Positions 1 to 7,280 of a stretch of 64,000 bases of DNA are shown here, one piece after another. The notes beneath the pieces were generated by a model. The model was not told the origin of the DNA and made no database searches. It worked only from the letters and a program-made list of their open reading frames with translations. The stretch is from contig JAHFUP010000014.1 in NCBI GenBank assembly GCA_023265025.1, positions 1 through 64,000 of the forward strand. The letters are read 5' to 3'. Both the position numbers and the translations under genes were made by a program. This DNA comes from Acidimicrobiia bacterium. Its GTDB lineage: Bacteria; Actinomycetota; Acidimicrobiia; Acidimicrobiales; AC-14. Position 1 is the stretch's first letter, and every line of letters begins with the position of its first letter.

Positions 1-198
1 GAGGTGGCGGACGACGTCCTCGTCGCCCGTCGTGGCGGGGAACACGTCAACGAAGCGGAACAGCTGGGTCTTGAACGACGGGTGCGACATCGCCCACTCG
101 AGCATCCGCTCGCTCCACCAGGAGGAGGACACGATATGTCCCCTGGTCTCCATGGAGTCGGAGAGTTGCTGAGCGATCTCCCTGGCAGTGTCGGCCAT
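1..198 (-). CDS. putA: PutA-type proline dehydrogenase, N-terminal part, runs off the left edge
   Basis: Only the first 66 codons lie in the window. The peptide contains SSSWW at residues 24-28 and LFRFVDVFP at residues 46-54, which is the conserved N-terminal block of actinobacterial PutA proteins. These oxidise proline to glutamate through an FAD proline dehydrogenase and a P5C dehydrogenase domain. I chose the ATG at 198. The first 22 or so codons differ from the likely original start, which lies at 6538: a mobile element has inserted at the SSSWW codons and supplies a replacement 5' end. No good Shine-Dalgarno sequence precedes 198. The family call is by recognition of a short conserved block; the rest of the gene is outside the window. 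Confidence 0.75.
   Translation of the reverse strand, partial: MADTAREIAQQLSDSMETRGHIVSSSWWSERMLEWAMSHPSFKTQLFRFVDVFPATTGDEDVVRHL
114..135. other. attL attachment site
   Basis: TCCACCAGGAGGA at 114-126, then one differing base and GACACGAT. It matches the site at 6439-6460 at 21 of 22 positions. On the minus strand the core encodes the SSWW part of PutA, and here it joins element DNA to the PutA body. Confidence 0.8.
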
Positions 199-250
199 GA
201 GCCATGATCCCAGGTACCCCTGGTGACCTCGCAACGTAGGCTCGTGCTGC

Positions 251-742
251 ATGGGCGAGGCGATCTTCGGGCTGATCGGCGTGATCGTCGGTGGCCTCAT
301 CACCGCTGGGACGCAGCTGTGGAACGAACGTCTTCGCAACCGGAACGAGTTTCAGCGGGCGAAACGCCTCATCGAAAGCGAGTTGCTCAACGCCGAATAC
401 TTCATGGACACCCTGGTCAAGACTGCGGAGTTCGCCCCATACCCCAACGTTGACGACGTCCTTCCGACCTCGGCGTGGCGAGAGTACGCACCTGCCGTCG
501 TCTCCAGCCTGGACGACAAGCTTTGGAAGCGCCTCGTTATGACCTACGGCAACCTCGAACATGTCAAGGCGATGATGACGTCGAACACGCCGGACATGCT
601 CACCCCAGACAAATGGGTCGATCTGCGAGGAGGCTTAGCGGGCCAGGCACAGTGGCTCAAGCGCAACCGTGAGGAGCTGGCCTCCGTCGCGCTCCCGTCC
701 GCTTGGCGAAAGGGCAAAGCTATGGCACGAACGGAGCCATAG
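251..742 (+). CDS. Small membrane-anchored protein of unknown function
   Basis: 163 residues. Residues 4-22 form a hydrophobic, glycine-rich helix (IFGLIGVIVGGLITAGTQL) followed by positively charged residues, so the protein is probably anchored in the membrane with the C-terminal 140 residues in the cytoplasm. The soluble part is helical and charged and has no motif I recognise. It is the first gene inside the left end of the element and reads away from putA. Similar short proteins with one N-terminal helix are common as cargo in actinobacterial islands, but no function can be given. Confidence 0.6.
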   Translation: MGEAIFGLIGVIVGGLITAGTQLWNERLRNRNEFQRAKRLIESELLNAEYFMDTLVKTAEFAPYPNVDDVLPTSAWREYAPAVVSSLDDKLWKRLVMTYGNLEHVKAMMTSNTPDMLTPDKWVDLRGGLAGQAQWLKRNREELASVALPSAWRKGKAMARTEP

Positions 743-890
743 AACCGGTCGGTGCTATCGGCTCCAGCGCGGTCGTGAGAGAGTTAGCACAAGGTTGAAC
801 GTTCAACGGCCCCGCCGTGTGCATGCGGACCCGGCGACTGCGTCAACCAACCCAAGTTGTCGACACCTAAACCCCCGAGGGAGGCCTGGC

Positions 891-1097
891 ATGACCAGTG
901 ACGATCGGCAAGCCGAGATCGCTGCAATGGTGGCTCTCCTGCTGCCGATCGAGATCTCTCAGACGATGCCGAGACGGCTAGCGGCGGGGCTTCGCCGCAT
1001 ACTGGAACTCCTGCCACCATCTGATCAGAAACCCATGGACCGAGCCATGCGCCGTGACCTCCTCACCGGTGCCGAGGCACTCGACCAGCACACGTAA
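891..1097 (+). CDS. Small protein of unknown function
   Basis: 68 residues starting at the ATG at 891, preceded by a purine-rich GAGGGAGG about 7 bases upstream, which is the main reason to accept it. It is predicted mostly helical (for example MPRRLAAGLRRILELLPPSD). It lies 55 bases before the small serine recombinase in the same direction and might be its partner or a regulator. No family recognised. Confidence 0.45.
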   Translation: MTSDDRQAEIAAMVALLLPIEISQTMPRRLAAGLRRILELLPPSDQKPMDRAMRRDLLTGAEALDQHT

Positions 1098-1152
1098 GTC
1101 CCGAAGTAGGGCGTGTACACGTAAACGGTTCGAATATGTGTACAGTTGGCTC

Positions 1153-1860
1153 ATGACACCCCGGCGGAACCGTGGCTTGCGAGCTGGTGAGACCGTCCGC
1201 CGTCTCGCATACGTTCGTGTGAGCACGGAAGAGCAGGCGGATTCGGGCCTGGGAGTCGCTGCCCAAAGGGCCGCCATCCTTGCGGACTGTGCCCGGCGCG
1301 GGTGGGACGAGCCCACCTTCATCGTCGACGAGGGCTATAGCGCCAAGAACCTCGACCGTCCGGGAATTACACAGGTGCTCGATGCGCTCGGGTCTGGTGC
1401 AGCCAGCACTGTGATGGTGGCAAAGCTCGACCGCCTGAGTAGAAGCCTGCTCGACTTCGCCGGGCTGGTGGAAAGAGCTCGACGTGAGGGCTGGGAACTG
1501 ATCGCGCTCGACACCCCCGTGGATATGAGCACACCGACCGGGGAGATGATGGCAGCCATTGTCGCCACCTTCGGCCAGTACGAGCGCCGCCTGATTGCCG
1601 ACCGCACCAAAGGCGCCCTGCGGGCAAAGAAGGCCGCCGGGGCGCGGCTTGGGCGCCCACGGCTACTTCCGGACGCAACCCTCTACCGCATCGGGGCGAT
1701 GCACGATGCTGGCGCCAGTGTGCGGGCGATTGCCAGCATCCTGACGGACGAGGCCGTACCGACCGCCACGGGCGGCGCCATATGGCACCCCACCGCAGTC
1801 GGTCGTGCACTACGAAGCCTTGCTCTCGACCGGGAAGCTGCTTCTGCGAGGGCCTCGTAG
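1153..1860 (+). CDS. Small serine recombinase (resolvase/invertase family)
   Basis: 235 residues. The N-terminal catalytic domain shows YVRVSTEEQ with the nucleophilic Ser24, then AKLDRLSRS and GQYERRLIADRT, the arginine-rich blocks of the resolvase/invertase family. The C-terminus (about residues 170-225) looks like a helix-turn-helix DNA-binding region. Length fits a small resolvase or invertase rather than a large integrase. I chose the ATG at 1153 because the catalytic domain begins right after it; an upstream in-frame ATG at 1054 would add 33 residues unlike the family. Two TGTACA palindromes lie just upstream (about 1112-1117 and 1138-1143) and could be part of its own site or operator. 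It could resolve element dimers or invert a segment. Confidence 0.85.
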   Translation: MTPRRNRGLRAGETVRRLAYVRVSTEEQADSGLGVAAQRAAILADCARRGWDEPTFIVDEGYSAKNLDRPGITQVLDALGSGAASTVMVAKLDRLSRSLLDFAGLVERARREGWELIALDTPVDMSTPTGEMMAAIVATFGQYERRLIADRTKGALRAKKAAGARLGRPRLLPDATLYRIGAMHDAGASVRAIASILTDEAVPTATGGAIWHPTAVGRALRSLALDREAASARAS

Positions 1861-1902
1861 GCCGAAGGGGACAGCGTCCTGGACAACGCTACAGTCAGCC
1901 CC

Positions 1903-2661
1903 GTGCCCGCGTGGAGTCACACCGTGACGGTCGCGTGGCCCCCGTCACTCAAATTCTTCGAACGACGAAGTGACCTACTGGGGCAGCTGGAGAGTCAGGA
2001 CCTCGTGTCGGCGTTCCGCTGGTCCGAAAACCTGATCGGAGCACGACTCGGCCGAGGTGAGGTCCTGGAGGTCTCGTCGTTGGGGGCGATGCTGATCACG
2101 ATCGGCCCAGACGCTCGTCAGGACAATGCTCGTAACGCGCTCAAACTGGCGATTGAGACGCTGGAGCCAACAAACCTGGTGCTTGCCCAGGCGCTCTTCC
2201 AGTTCATGCTGCCGGTGGATCGTGAGTACGCAGCAGCTCGACGGCACTCTGCCCGTAGGCTCGTCACCCCCCTGTTGCCGCACGCCAGACCAGACGACTG
2301 GTCGATGTTGGTCGATGGACGGTCGCGCGTCAGCAATGCACCCTTTCAAGTGGAGTTCGGTGTCATCGACGAGCGAGAGGCGCCCGACAGGCTCTCCAGA
2401 CGAGTCGGTCGGATGCACGCTCACGAGCTCGCGCCATTCCCGGAGGACTTCTTCGAGGATCACGAGTACCCTGAGTGTGCGCTCTTCTTCGACTGGCGCT
2501 GGTTCCCAAACCGGCAGTTCGCCCCGGCGGCGGTTGATCCCGACATGTTCGCCTTCTGGGATGCGCTCGCCGGAGAGAGCGAAGCGATGTGCCAGACAGT
2601 TCAGTCTGGCGTTGGACTAGTCGAAGAGGGTAGAGATACGGACGTGGAGGCAGAGAGATGA
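1903..2661 (+). CDS. Hypothetical protein, first gene of a three-gene cargo set
   Basis: 252 residues, no signal peptide or membrane segment. It begins WPPSLKFFERRSDLLGQLES and ends with an acidic tail. It overlaps the next gene at ATGA (2658-2661), so the two are translated together. The general layout (a sensor-like soluble protein of about 250 residues) recalls the sporadically distributed TIGR04255 proteins of mobile islands, but the likeness is weak and I do not assign it. It is cargo of the integrated element. Confidence 0.6.
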   Translation: MPAWSHTVTVAWPPSLKFFERRSDLLGQLESQDLVSAFRWSENLIGARLGRGEVLEVSSLGAMLITIGPDARQDNARNALKLAIETLEPTNLVLAQALFQFMLPVDREYAAARRHSARRLVTPLLPHARPDDWSMLVDGRSRVSNAPFQVEFGVIDEREAPDRLSRRVGRMHAHELAPFPEDFFEDHEYPECALFFDWRWFPNRQFAPAAVDPDMFAFWDALAGESEAMCQTVQSGVGLVEEGRDTDVEAER

Positions 2662-2843
2662 GTAGCAGCACGGCGGCGCTTCTGGACCGGCCCAGCATGG
2701 TGGCCGAGTGGATCGAACTGTACCCTCATCGTTCGACGCGCCCAGTGCGGCTTTTGGAGCGGCCGGTCGAGGTCGTCGACGTCGAGGAGAGCTACCCGGC
2801 TATCAGGCTGGTGCCATACCAGGGCGATCTAGACGTCGTCTGA
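2658..2843 (+). CDS. Small hypothetical protein, translationally coupled
   Basis: 61 residues, start codon overlapping the stop of the previous gene (ATGA). Acidic and soluble, with RPVEVVDVEESYPAIRLVPY in the C-terminal half. The tight overlap is the main support that it is real. It could be a small partner or antidote of its neighbours; nothing in the sequence proves that. Confidence 0.5.
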   Translation: MSSSTAALLDRPSMVAEWIELYPHRSTRPVRLLERPVEVVDVEESYPAIRLVPYQGDLDVV

Positions 2844-2869
2844 AAGGCCCGCAGGTCGTCTGCTGAGCG

Positions 2870-3394
2870 ATGCTGCCCTGCTTGCCCTGGCTCCGCCAAG
2901 GCGACGTGTTCGAAGATGTTCATTGGCTAACCGTCACTAGCAGCGACGACGATGACGACTTCGTCGCTTCGTTGGGTTCCGGTGCCGCTCTGCTCATCAC
3001 TCACGGGTGCCAGATGGATAAGAGGACGAACGCAGGGCGGCCGAAGGCGAAGAGGCTCCAGTTCCTACCGGTCCATCCGATCACCGACCTGAACCACGAC
3101 AGTCAGGAGCGGCTTCGCCGGCATGAAGTGAGCCCTCCCGAAGCCGTGTTCGTTGGCGCTCTCCCCGATGGTCGCGAGTGCTTCGGCCTGCTCGGTGAGG
3201 CGTACACGCTGCCGACGTCCTACTTCCATCCTCATGTGGAGTCCTTCGAGGGCCATTCCCAGGCCGATCAGGCCGACCCGTACCATCTTGTCGCCACTAG
3301 ACATGACGAGCGTCTGGGGACCATCGAGGACGAGCTGGTCGAGCTGATGCACAGCAAGATTGTTGCCTACTGGCTCGGCGCTCAGCGGGCGTGA
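2870..3394 (+). CDS. Hypothetical protein with LPWLRQGDVF start
   Basis: 174 residues, soluble. The N-terminal LPWLRQGDVFEDVHW and the following ALLITHGCQMDK resemble a scattered family of unknown proteins from phage and island regions that carry a QGDVF block and a later block like THDCDLDK. The middle holds PEAVFVGALPDGREC and the end is helical. It lies 26 bases after the small gene and probably belongs to the same transcript. Function is unknown; a role in defence or element maintenance is only a guess from context. Confidence 0.55.
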   Translation: MLPCLPWLRQGDVFEDVHWLTVTSSDDDDDFVASLGSGAALLITHGCQMDKRTNAGRPKAKRLQFLPVHPITDLNHDSQERLRRHEVSPPEAVFVGALPDGRECFGLLGEAYTLPTSYFHPHVESFEGHSQADQADPYHLVATRHDERLGTIEDELVELMHSKIVAYWLGAQRA

Positions 3395-3522
3395 AGGCTG
3401 GGCGCCGTGTGAGCACGTTCAGGACGCCCGTGTGCTCCTCCGGCGGCGACACCAGGATGGCAGCGTGGCTGGCTCCCGGACCGACCCCGACGACGGCGTC
3501 GAGGGAGAGCGGCTCGTGTAGG

Positions 3523-4388
3523 TCACGGTGGGCGAGGTCGCGCCGCACGACAGATACTCCGGGGTGGTCGAGGTGACCTCTGCTGCCGGTGCCCAGAGCA
3601 GTAGTGACGCACCGGCAGGGTGTCCCTGATCGGGTCTAGGAGGGGCCTAGGGCGGGCAGGAGCCGGGGCAGCCGAGGGCACCGTACGCTGCCTGCGGTGG
3701 GCCTGGCGCCCGTTCACTTGGTTCTCCTTCTGCCGAGGGGCCACGGACAAGGAGCACGGGTTGCCCTCTGCATCCCGGTAGAAGCGTCGCGTATGGTGGC
3801 CCAGCCGGTTGCCGTTGACCCTCAGGTACTCGGTGCTCGTGCTGGGGTCGGCCGCCATCTTCATGCCGTAGTCGATGGGGCCGGTGTGGTGGGTGTACGC
3901 CACCACGTCGGTCCAACCGATCGCCGCCGAGGCGGCGACCTCGGCGATGTAGGGCGTCGGGTCGTCTCCGTGCTGGTAGGCGTGGACGTGGTAGCCGGTA
4001 CCCGCGGGGTTCGGCTCGACGTGCCAGGTGTGCTCGTAGCTCACGCCCTTGGCCCGGAGCTTCTCTACCAACTTGTTGACCTGGCCTGAGTGGTGGCGAA
4101 GTCGTCGCTCAGGCCGGTGAGCAGAATCATCCGTTGGGGTTTAGCGCGCATGATGGCGTAGCCCACCTGCCTGATGTTGATGGGGAGACAGTAAGCACAA
4201 GAGAGGCGTCTGCAACGATCTGGCCGGAGTTCACCAGTAGAACGGTCGAGCCAGAAGCCGCGGCTGTCTGGGCATGAGCTTCCGGGAGGATGGCGCGTAC
4301 TAGTAACAAGAGAGGTGCGGCCGGGCGTGATGGGCACCAGCGGAACGACATGCCGCTCCCGCTGTAGCACCCTTGTACTAGCCTTCAC
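3523..4388 (-). pseudogene. HUH-type replication protein (Rep), broken by a frameshift
   Basis: The upstream part has a Cys cluster (CRRLSCAYC) and ends in frame at 4065 after LSDDFATTQA. The downstream part picks up in another frame at about 4085 with QVNKLVEKLRAKG and carries HVHAYQ (the HUH metal-binding motif) and DYGMKMA (a Tyr-x-x-Lys nicking motif). Together they look like one Rep of the type found in actinobacterial plasmids and integrative elements, which nicks an origin and starts rolling-circle replication. Adding one base near 4083 would restore a single frame. I place the start at the GTG at 4388, which has AGGAAGGG upstream. It may be a decayed gene, a sequencing error or, less likely, a programmed shift. 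The true C-terminus is uncertain. Confidence 0.7.
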
Positions 4389-4460
4389 CCACGGTCCCTT
4401 CCTCGCTTGGGGGGCGATACGAGGGGTCGGGCTTCGGGCCTGGCCCCTCTCTCTTTTGTC

Positions 4461-4507
4461 GACCACCACCCCCCGATTTACTTAGCGGCGGGTTCGGGGT
4501 GGTGGTC
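4461..4507. repeat. 12-base inverted repeat, candidate replication origin hairpin
   Basis: GACCACCACCCC at 4461-4472 and its exact reverse complement at 4496-4507 enclose a 23-base loop containing GATTTACTTAG. It lies just upstream of the Rep gene, where the nick site of HUH Rep proteins is often found. It could also act as a terminator. Confidence 0.55.
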
Positions 4508-4668
4508 CCAAGACAGGGGGATATAGCCGTGGGTGATATCGGCGCTGACTATAGTCGTAGACCAGAGCGCATTTCCTATTAACGCAAGAGAGCATGTACT
4601 AGATGGACCGCCAGATGCTCACCCTGTCATTGTTGCTTTACTGAGCGGTCGAGGATACTACTGGAGAT

Positions 4669-5007
4669 GTGCGCCACGATCACGGCCGGTTCCCGAGGGC
4701 CTACGCGCGTGCCCTCACCGCTCTCCGGCTCGCCTACCCCGAGGAATTCGCCGCAGCAAGGGCGGCGCGCTCAGATGAGAACAACCTGGCCAGCTACCGC
4801 CACGCCCTCGCGGTCCTGAGGACGGCTCACGAGCCGGAGTTCCGGGCGCGGTGTGTCCTGGAGATGACGGACGGGGTGGACGTACTCCGGCGTGCCCCCT
4901 GGGGTCAGGGAAGCGGACGAGGGCGGCGTCGTGACCTGGGTGGTCACCGACACCGACATAGCCCGGCAGCTAGCCCGGCTGATCCTCCGTCCCGTCGCGA
5001 AGCGTGA
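4669..5007 (+). CDS. Hypothetical protein (uncertain)
   Basis: 112 residues from a GTG at 4669. Residues 8-75 look like real protein: a helical, alanine-rich segment with YPEEFAAARAARSD and SYRHALAVLRTAHEPEFR. The last 30 residues are Arg/Gly-rich and run antisense to the 3' end of the integrase, with which it overlaps by 38 bases, so the true end may differ. The ribosome site is poor. The 160 bases before it hold no gene that I can see. Confidence 0.35.
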   Translation: MRHDHGRFPRAYARALTALRLAYPEEFAAARAARSDENNLASYRHALAVLRTAHEPEFRARCVLEMTDGVDVLRRAPWGQGSGRGRRRDLGGHRHRHSPAASPADPPSRREA

Positions 5008-6421
5008 CCTTCACGCGGGTGGGGTCGAAGCGGTTGTATCCCCGGCGACCAGGGTGGACGGTGATGCGCTCGACCACGAGGCCCACGACCTCCCGGCGCC
5101 ATGCGAGGTCATCGCCCTCCCAGCGGGCCAGCAAGGCGTGGGCGGTGTCCGGCAAGCCTCCCAGTACTCGGTGCCCACGTACCTCTGACAGGCGTCCCAT
5201 GAGGTCGGCCCGCTTGGCTTCCAGCCCCGCCCTGATCCTCTTGTAAGCGTCCTTGGTGATCGTGGCCTCGACGTAGTGGTCCTGCTCGGCGTTCAGGAGC
5301 CGCTGTTCAATGGACCGAAGCTCGGCGGCGAGGGCACGGCGGTCCTCTCCCTGCTCGACCTCCTGGTCAATGGCGTCGTGGACCATGGGCGAGGTCAGGG
5401 CCTCGATGACGCCATCGCGCACGAGGTCTTCCAGGGGTCCGGCCATGATCTTCTGCTGGTGGCCCGCCACCTTCTCGGCACAAATGTAGCTCCGGGTCCC
5501 ATCGGGCCGGGGGCGGGCGAACATCTTCGAGCCACAGGTGCCGCAGTACACCAGCCCGACCAGGAGGTACCTCCGGGCGTTGGGGCCGGCGTAGGTGGTG
5601 CGGTTGGGGTCGTTGAGCACCGCCCGCAACTCTTCCAGGGTGGCGAGGTCCACGATGGGACCCCAGGCCGCCGGGGTCTCCTTGCCGTTGTGGGTGCGCA
5701 GCCCGGCGATGCGGGCGGAGGTCAGCACCCTCTTGACGCCCTGCACCTTCCATGGCCCGCCCTTCACCGTGGGAATGCCCTTGCCGTTCCAGTCCGTGAC
5801 GATCGAGCGCACGGAGGCCCCGTCCTCCAGGACGCGCCGGGCGGCCTCGCGGATGAGACCGGCCTCGAACTCGTTCACGGTCCACTCGAAGGTGTCCCGA
5901 GAACGACCGTTGATCATGGGCATGACGTAGTAGCCGAACGGACGTTGGCCCCCTGCCGGACGCCCAGCGGCGGCGGCGGCGTTGTGGCGAAGGCGGGCGC
6001 GCTCAGCCTTGTGCTCGCTCTCGTACCTGGCGGTGGCTCCGACGATTCGGGCACCGAGGCGACCCGTCGGCGTGGTCAGGTCGTAGGTGCCGCCCTGCAC
6101 CATCATGACGCCGGCCCCGGTGCGCTCCACCACGTCGATGAAGGACTCCAACTCCTTCGGGGAGCGGTGCAGGCGGTCGTTGTGCCAGCAGATGACCCCG
6201 GCTGCGCCGGCATCGAGATAGGCCAGGAGTTGCTGGTAGGCGGGCCGCTTGCCCTTGTACGCGGAGCGGTCATTGTCTTCGAGCACCCCGGCGACAGGAA
6301 GCCCTTCGCTCTCGGCGAGGGCGATGCACTCACCCCGCTGGTTCTCGACGCCTGCCCGGAGACCGAGGGGGTCGGACGAGATACGGACGTACACCCACCA
6401 GCCGGATGGCGTCGTGTTCAT
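4970..6421 (-). CDS. Large serine integrase of the element
   Basis: 483 residues from the ATG at 6421. The catalytic domain has WVYVRISSDP (nucleophile Ser15), VICWHNDRLHRS and a TPTGRLGARIVGATARYES helix. A recombinase domain follows (about 150-260), then a zinc-ribbon (CGTCGSKM followed by a later Cys in YICAEK) and a coiled-coil stretch with many Glu/Arg near residues 365-420. This is the order of phage-type large serine integrases. Opening the frame further gives an ATG at 6538, but those 39 extra codons are the original PutA N-terminus carried over through attR. The gene ends beside the attachment site, as expected, and it probably catalyses integration at putA. A TACGGT box 7 bases before 6421 could give a leaderless transcript. 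Confidence 0.9.
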   Translation of the reverse strand: MNTTPSGWWVYVRISSDPLGLRAGVENQRGECIALAESEGLPVAGVLEDNDRSAYKGKRPAYQQLLAYLDAGAAGVICWHNDRLHRSPKELESFIDVVERTGAGVMMVQGGTYDLTTPTGRLGARIVGATARYESEHKAERARLRHNAAAAAGRPAGGQRPFGYYVMPMINGRSRDTFEWTVNEFEAGLIREAARRVLEDGASVRSIVTDWNGKGIPTVKGGPWKVQGVKRVLTSARIAGLRTHNGKETPAAWGPIVDLATLEELRAVLNDPNRTTYAGPNARRYLLVGLVYCGTCGSKMFARPRPDGTRSYICAEKVAGHQQKIMAGPLEDLVRDGVIEALTSPMVHDAIDQEVEQGEDRRALAAELRSIEQRLLNAEQDHYVEATITKDAYKRIRAGLEAKRADLMGRLSEVRGHRVLGGLPDTAHALLARWEGDDLAWRREVVGLVVERITVHPGRRGYNRFDPTRVKVTLRDGTEDQPG

Positions 6422-6438
6422 GGGATATACCGTAGCGG

Positions 6439-6460
6439 TCCACCAGGAGGACGACACGAT
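6439..6460. other. attR attachment site
   Basis: TCCACCAGGAGGA at 6439-6451, one differing base, GACACGAT at 6453-6460. It joins the chromosomal PutA start (to its right) with element DNA and lies 18 bases upstream of the integrase ATG. Confidence 0.8.
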
Positions 6461-6538
6461 GCCGGACCGCTCCTCGCCGCCGAGTTCGGCCAGGTGGCGG
6501 GCCAGGGCGGTGGCGGCCTTGTCCAGAGTGGTCGGCAT
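6440..6538 (-). pseudogene. putA: Original 5' end of putA, cut off by the insertion
   Basis: The ATG at 6538 has CGGAG a few bases upstream and lies 10 bases after the end of the DUF5995 gene, so it was probably the start of the native putA. It encodes 33 residues ending in GIVSSSWW, the same motif found at residues 22-28 of the left-edge PutA fragment. After the core the frame continues without a stop into the integrase, making a 522-residue fused frame. Confidence 0.75.
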
Positions 6539-6548
6539 AGCTCCGACG

Positions 6549-7280
6549 TTACGGCGAGTCGAGCGTTACCCGGCCCAGGGCGTCGATGACGGCGACGACA
6601 TCGTCGGACTCCGTCGCGGCCACGACGTCGACCGCCCGCTGCAGCAGCCCGCCCGGGTGGGCGACGAGCTTGCCCAGCACGGCGACGTGGCGGTCGAGTG
6701 AGTCGATCAGCTGGGCGCGGCGAGCGTCGTCCGCGGTCGAGGCCAGGGTCACCGCCTGCTGCCACGCCTCGTCGCGCGCCACCCGGATGCTGAACCGCAG
6801 GACTTCGTCGTCGCCGCCGCCGCCGACGCGATCGATCACGTCGAGCAGCGGCGAGAACCGACCGATGCACCCACGGACCTTTGGCATGAGCGCGGCGAGG
6901 ACGGCGTTGACGCGCATGAAGTCGTCGTGGAGGAAGGGGATCCGCTCCCCCGGGCACACCTCGGCGGCGACGACGGCCAGGTCGAGGTTGATGTGGGCGT
7001 TGATGCCCAGGAGCAGGTGCTGGAGGATGACGTGGTGGCGGGAGCGGGCGGCGTCGAAGGCGACCTGCCAGCATCGGGGCACGGTGCCGCCGCCGAGCGG
7101 GCCGAGGTAACGGCCGGCGAACCGGGTCACGAACTCCTCCATACGGGGGGCGTCGTCGAAACCGCCGGCAGCCACCTGGGCCCGGACGGTGCTCGTCGTC
7201 TGGCGGTACATCGCCGCGAACCAGCCCAGGCGGTCATGGCGCCGGCGGGCGTCGGCAACGGCGTCGTCGAGCGCGGTCAC
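6549..7280 (-). CDS. DUF5995 family protein
   Basis: 243 residues, soluble, mostly helical. The central block VAFDAARSRHHVILQHLLLG followed by NAHINLDL is typical of DUF5995, a family of unknown function common in actinobacteria. The histidines in this block may bind a metal. It lies just before the native putA start with 10 bases between, so in the ancestral genome the two were probably co-transcribed; today the integrase follows it. Confidence 0.8.
   Translation of the reverse strand: MTALDDAVADARRRHDRLGWFAAMYRQTTSTVRAQVAAGGFDDAPRMEEFVTRFAGRYLGPLGGGTVPRCWQVAFDAARSRHHVILQHLLLGINAHINLDLAVVAAEVCPGERIPFLHDDFMRVNAVLAALMPKVRGCIGRFSPLLDVIDRVGGGGDDEVLRFSIRVARDEAWQQAVTLASTADDARRAQLIDSLDRHVAVLGKLVAHPGGLLQRAVDVVAATESDDVVAVIDALGRVTLDSP

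Follow-up and report, generated by a model that had tools for sequence, protein, structure and literature searches.

A 6,325-bp element encoding a large serine integrase has very probably inserted into the 5′ part of putA, and a PutA-like head and start codon carried by the element keep the reading frame of the gene open. The evidence comes from a 64-kb window, the whole stretch of DNA that was analyzed, and from comparisons with related genomes.

An insertion within the 5′ coding part of putA

The element is bounded by two copies of TCCACCAGGAGGAnGACACGAT, at positions 114-135 and 6439-6460, and has a GC content of 0.65 vs. 0.73 in the flank. Elsewhere in the window this 22-bp sequence does not occur, even when up to 3 mismatches are allowed, and none of 100 shuffled sequences contained it at the same tolerance. 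The copies are identical at 21 of 22 bases, both translate on the minus strand as IVSSSWW, and the only difference between them is synonymous (TCC/TCG, serine), in agreement with an earlier note on this DNA, which had pointed to the shared bases and to the PutA motif encoded by each copy. The first copy lies within the predicted attL (97-142, minus strand, 46 bp), whose center is the dinucleotide at which crossover is predicted (119-120, TG on the minus strand). The second lies within the predicted attR (6422-6467, minus strand, 46 bp, center at 6444-6445), which adjoins the ATG of the integrase.

The two parts of putA are found on either side. On the host side of attL, the body of the gene (ERMLEWAMSHPSFKTQLFRFVDVFPATTGDEDVVRHL..., 1-126, minus strand) goes on in another contig, C184, as a 969-aa open frame. 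The native start and head (MPTTLDKAATALARHLAELGGEERSGIVS, 6452-6538, minus strand), which match same-genus PutA, are orphaned before the integrase. The earlier note had assigned the original putA start to the right copy, and this is where it is: the native head MPTTLDKAATALARHLAELGGEERSG aligns with same-genus PutA from residue 1, with the start at 6538. A DUF5995 gene (6549-7280, minus strand) ends 10 bp before this ATG; because it lies directly upstream of putA in the same-genus genome G002 as well, the two genes probably form one operon. Protein searches in the genome itself returned only the split pieces of putA, so no second PutA of that type was found.

Relatives show what the site looks like when empty. 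We built the predicted empty gene by joining positions 6452-6700 to 1-126. The join aligns through the junction to G002 (373 bp, 85.5%) and to another same-genus genome, G001 (236 bp, 85.6%), and other members of the family align likewise; the 117 N-terminal residues of the predicted protein are 87-91% identical to intact same-genus PutA. In G001 and G002, putA is uninterrupted exactly across the 6538-6440/126-1 join, and the sequences on both sides of the element, putA on its left and the flanking DNA on its right, match these genomes. The earlier note had reasoned that relatives without the element should have a continuous putA rather than two separate halves, and that the fragment at the left edge should resemble PutA. 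The former is what these genomes show, with conserved flanks, and the frame of the left copy matches Pfam PutA_N (E value of 2.4e-18), the match beginning within the part encoded by the element. The insertion is thus in the 5′ part of the coding sequence of a host gene whose site is empty in relatives, as for the elements of the prfC, dusA, and mutS type.

The position of the insertion at the edge of a contig calls for caution. The window and contig C79 begin at the same base, the remainder of putA is on C184, and the last 120 bases of C184 are an exact overlap with positions 1-120 of the window. One could therefore suspect an assembly artifact or a false join of contigs, with an intact putA elsewhere, since C79 begins at base 1, C184 ends at base 120, and a single 120-bp overlap makes the join. 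We regard this as highly improbable: attR and attL are on one contig, the overlap is present at only one further location in the genome, C184 carries the frame on perfectly with a flank that matches the region downstream of putA in relatives, and no intact copy of putA was found in the genome.

The predicted crossover dinucleotide is precisely where the overlap between the window and the end of C184 (L003) stops. The next base, 121, is the wobble position of a serine codon, at which relatives carry another base (TCG). Because of this difference, a co-assembled strain with an empty site could have produced the contig branch at base 120. We reject the break as proof of a mixed population, with which it is nevertheless consistent.

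The replacement head and the fate of putA

The start supplied by the element is ATG 198, and the head that follows (MADTAREIAQQLSDSMETRGHIVS, 127-198, minus strand) shares its frame with the putA body: MADTAREIAQQLSDSMETRGH leads from this ATG through the left copy into PutA, and the host's MPTTLDKAATALARHLAELGGEERSGIVSSSWW is replaced by the element-coded MADTAREIAQQLSDSMETRGHIVSSSWW. The run ATCGTGTCnTCCTCC, on the side of the crossover that belongs to the element, departs from the host sequence at a single base. We scored the head against a model of the PutA N termini of relatives, where it reached 108.4 bits, and compared it with 500 versions in which the 20 residues after the methionine were permuted (mean of 103.1, standard deviation of 1.8). 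As 6 of the 500 shuffles reached its score (P of about 0.012) and the other 494 scored lower, the likeness of the head to PutA is, by sequence comparison, genuine but modest. The new ATG followed by about 22 PutA-like codons, described in the earlier note, is therefore borne out. Its broader claim, that the insertion keeps putA open, stands as far as the open hybrid frame is concerned; that the cell uses the new start is something we infer. An in-frame start with a head resembling the native one is what elements replacing 5′ ends provide.

We propose that the element integrates at an attB close to the 5′ end of the only putA detected, within the codons of the conserved IVSSSWWSERM stretch. The half of attP facing the putA body would also encode a PutA-like head and a start codon, and integration would exchange the first 33 PutA codons (up to WW) for 28 codons of the element while leaving the frame open. 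In such a scheme, the integrase would still catalyze recombination, the element would supply a promoter, and a hybrid PutA would be made and would work. The scheme draws on two att sites, their common center of dyad symmetry, the empty site of relatives, and the open hybrid frames. Some points weigh against it: a scan poorly suited to actinobacteria recognized no promoter ahead of the new ATG, no gene for recombination directionality and no second copy of the element were identified, the likeness of the head is modest, with about 1% of shuffles doing equally well, an in-frame ATG nearby is not rare by chance, and putA had to be assembled from two contigs.

These points raise the question of whether the site-specific insertion could be real and the restored frame an accident, leaving putA weakly expressed or perhaps silent. 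PutA N termini are variable before SSWW, which makes a loose match easy, and the in-frame fusion to the integrase on the other side of the element has a chance of occurring that we roughly estimate at near 0.3. A sigma-70 promoter scan, which suits actinobacteria poorly, gave no match at either start, the new ATG of putA included. We nevertheless think that an accident is unlikely, given the score of the head in the shuffling analysis and the similar length of the two heads (28 vs. 33 codons to WW). Furthermore, with no more than a synonymous change, the element side of the crossover retains IVSSS, and putA is single copy, with a 969-codon body on C184 that lacks stops and shows no decay.

Another possibility is that the element acts mainly as a gene switch, its insertion lowering or altering the control of putA and its excision restoring the native gene. 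The SpyCI islands in mutL are a precedent (PMC3430984, PMC4689407), the insertion parts putA from the probable DUF5995-putA operon, and the contig break at the att core could correspond to a mixture of empty and filled sites. However, the frame is unbroken, unlike what a simple off-switch would leave, and the assembly has no contig with an empty site. A switch is compatible with the replacement of the putA head by the element, but as the main effect of the insertion it seems improbable.

The new putA start and a divergent open reading frame (ORF) of the element, starting at 251, are 52 bp apart (199-250). The interval includes a short palindrome-like sequence, CCAGGTACCCCTGG, which could be an operator.

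The integrase, its predicted sites, and the other genes of the element

The integrase (4970-6421, minus strand, 483 aa) has Resolvase, Recombinase, and zinc ribbon domains (PF00239, PF07508, and PF13408, all above their cutoffs) and matches the integrase family phrog_95 with an E value of 6.6e-85. Nine relatives align to it at 39-45%, and the catalytic motif is alignable. Its frame is open back to the native putA ATG (4970-6538, 522 aa), and its true start is likely ATG 6421, which gives the protein of 483 aa.

Swapping the half-sites back reconstructs attP as GGGACATATCGTGTCCTCCTCCTGGTGGACCGCTACGGTATATCCC and places attB inside GGCATCGTGTCGTCCTCCTGGTGGAGCGAGCGGATGCTC. The predicted attP is 46 bp long, has imperfect inverted repeats at its ends (12-bp arms matching at 10 of 12 positions), and abuts the integrase ATG. 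When 50 centers were tried in attP and 50 in attB, dyad symmetry was best at the same central TG (119-120, 6444-6445), with 14/25 for attP and 13/25 for attB; scores as high are reached at about 0.9% and 2.4% of the window positions, respectively. One study of serine integrases describes attP sites of 45 to 50 bp, with inverted repeats and a crossover dinucleotide, next to the integrase gene (PMC5311408). The pair predicted here has the same layout: 46 bp, beside the integrase, with a common central TG. The cores shared by attP and attB of serine integrases are usually shorter. Because of this, and because the copies here differ by one base, we infer that the half-site of the element may be constrained by both PutA coding and integrase binding. 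We did not identify a gene for recombination directionality in the element.

The core leaves four frames open. That of the host head with putA corresponds to the empty site, those of the element head with putA and of the host head with the integrase (522 aa) to the integrated state, and that of the element head with the integrase to the circle. It is tempting to see in the putA-integrase fusion a proof of regulatory design. We rejected this reading: since WW and the methionine of the integrase are just six codons apart, an open in-frame join would arise by chance about one time in three, and the fusion is weak evidence for design. That the swap of heads serves regulation, with the element head driving putA and the start of the DUF5995-putA operon driving the integrase, is a rather doubtful idea.

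A second, smaller serine recombinase, of the resolvase/invertase type (1153-1860, plus strand, about 235 aa) was identified by family matches. A possible rolling-circle replication initiator (3523-4469, minus strand) has a cysteine pair and the H-x-H motif YHVHAYQHG. It consists of two overlapping frames (4065-4469 and 3523-4071) with a stop near 4065, and is apparently frameshifted or affected by a sequencing error. Searches of phages, plasmids, and viral contigs gave no match to it; a 36% relative in genome G097, on a contig with other serine recombinases, falls just below the cutoff of Pfam REP_ORF2-G2P (25.1 bits for a cutoff of 27.8). Three more ORFs are on the plus strand: the one divergent from the new putA start (251-742, 163 aa), whose N terminus weakly matches the PADLOC system PDC-S67, and two without family match (1903-2661, 252 aa, and 2870-3394, 174 aa). 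Among the main ORFs of the element, Pfam, NCBIfam, and PHROGs revealed no relaxase or conjugation genes, as would be expected of conjugative or mobilizable elements. Virion structural and packaging genes, the mark of prophages, were not recognized either, the PHROGs matches in the 6.3 kb being to recombinases only. The element could be a small, plasmid-like integrative element.

Relatives and known systems

How widespread are such elements? By profile search, the closest relatives of the integrase are at 46-47% (genomes G001, G005, and G419). Scanning the genome_contigs collection with the single sequence gave no match, and scanning it with an alignment gave 80 relatives. In the viral_contigs collection, relatives were at 24% only, and in the phage and plasmid collections there was none of at least 60%, the best among the matches listed being at 33-38%. 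Around the related integrases, the search for long direct repeats gave short matches only. None of the relatives examined, including the 80 from genome_contigs, is near a PutA N terminus. When 397 genomes of the order were searched for the PutA N terminus, 85 gave a match, in some cases a weak one, and the present genome is the only one with a genuine split putA: three other candidates were rejected, being a scaffold gap (G271), a contig end (G750), and an interruption by runs of N (G714). The element has no known second copy and, with no relative beside putA and no other split putA, is alone within the data searched.

At L038/L093, a related serine integrase (L093, 3114-4472) is in frame with a long upstream ORF that, by eye, resembles a Mg chelatase protein of the ComM/YifB type; the shared frame suggests that its element is inserted inside that gene. 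At L075/L115, three related serine integrases are in tandem over about 5 kb, with a fourth near 156 kb on the same contig (G066:C22). At L066/L091, a 49% relative of the small recombinase and a 41% relative of the integrase are about 4-6 kb apart, and the pair may be a related element.

The earlier note had called the restoration of a 5′ end uncommon. Uncommon it is, but it has already been documented for prfC, dusA, and mutS (PMC4344509, PMC8409611, PMC5296598). The mutS elements of Vibrio splendidus 12B01 and others provide the gene with a promoter region and a new site of translation initiation, orphaning the start of the host; they differ from the present case in their target, in their PCR-shown excision, and in their many relatives at the same site, and the class of their recombinase is not stated in the study (PMC5296598). 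IMEVchUSA3 and other dusA-specific elements bring a new promoter and an altered N terminus of similar length, the head being related to the native one (61% over 35 residues), but they are mobilizable islands of Vibrio for which expression was measured (PMC8409611). SXT/R391 in prfC also targets a 5′ end (PMC4344509) and provides a new promoter and N terminus (PMC8409611), but it is a conjugative element of about 100 kb with gammaproteobacterial hosts (PMC4344509). SpyCI islands integrate at the 5′ end of mutL but block its transcription without giving it a new head, apart from a decayed copy that has a cryptic promoter (PMC3430984). The closest parallels in integrase and sites are serine-integrase phages and elements of actinobacteria such as phiJoe, with a large serine integrase, attP beside its gene, and a central dinucleotide; the available part of the phiJoe paper does not describe the rebuilding of a target's 5′ end (PMC5311408). 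The phage integrases are also distant, at about 33% identity for the best among the matches listed.

The principle of replacing the 5′ end of a target gene is thus known from SXT in prfC, IMEVchUSA3 in dusA, and the mutS elements, from which the putA element differs by its serine integrase, its target, and its actinobacterial host. The integrases of SXT/R391 and of the dusA elements belong to a different class, the tyrosine integrases. A limited search of the open literature found no paper with putA as such a site, and the use of a serine integrase and the choice of putA look new for this kind of replacement. Our results would extend it to serine integrases and, in actinobacteria, to a gene of catabolism; the serine integrase, together with its predicted attP/attB pair, also lends itself to direct testing. 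The results further suggest that an att half-site can double as protein-coding sequence, with the same bases recognized by the integrase and encoding PutA; the length of the shared core would thereby be explained. Finally, if the swap of heads did serve regulation, the start of the host operon would drive the integrase, and the supply of integrase, and with it excision, would track the control of proline catabolism by the host.
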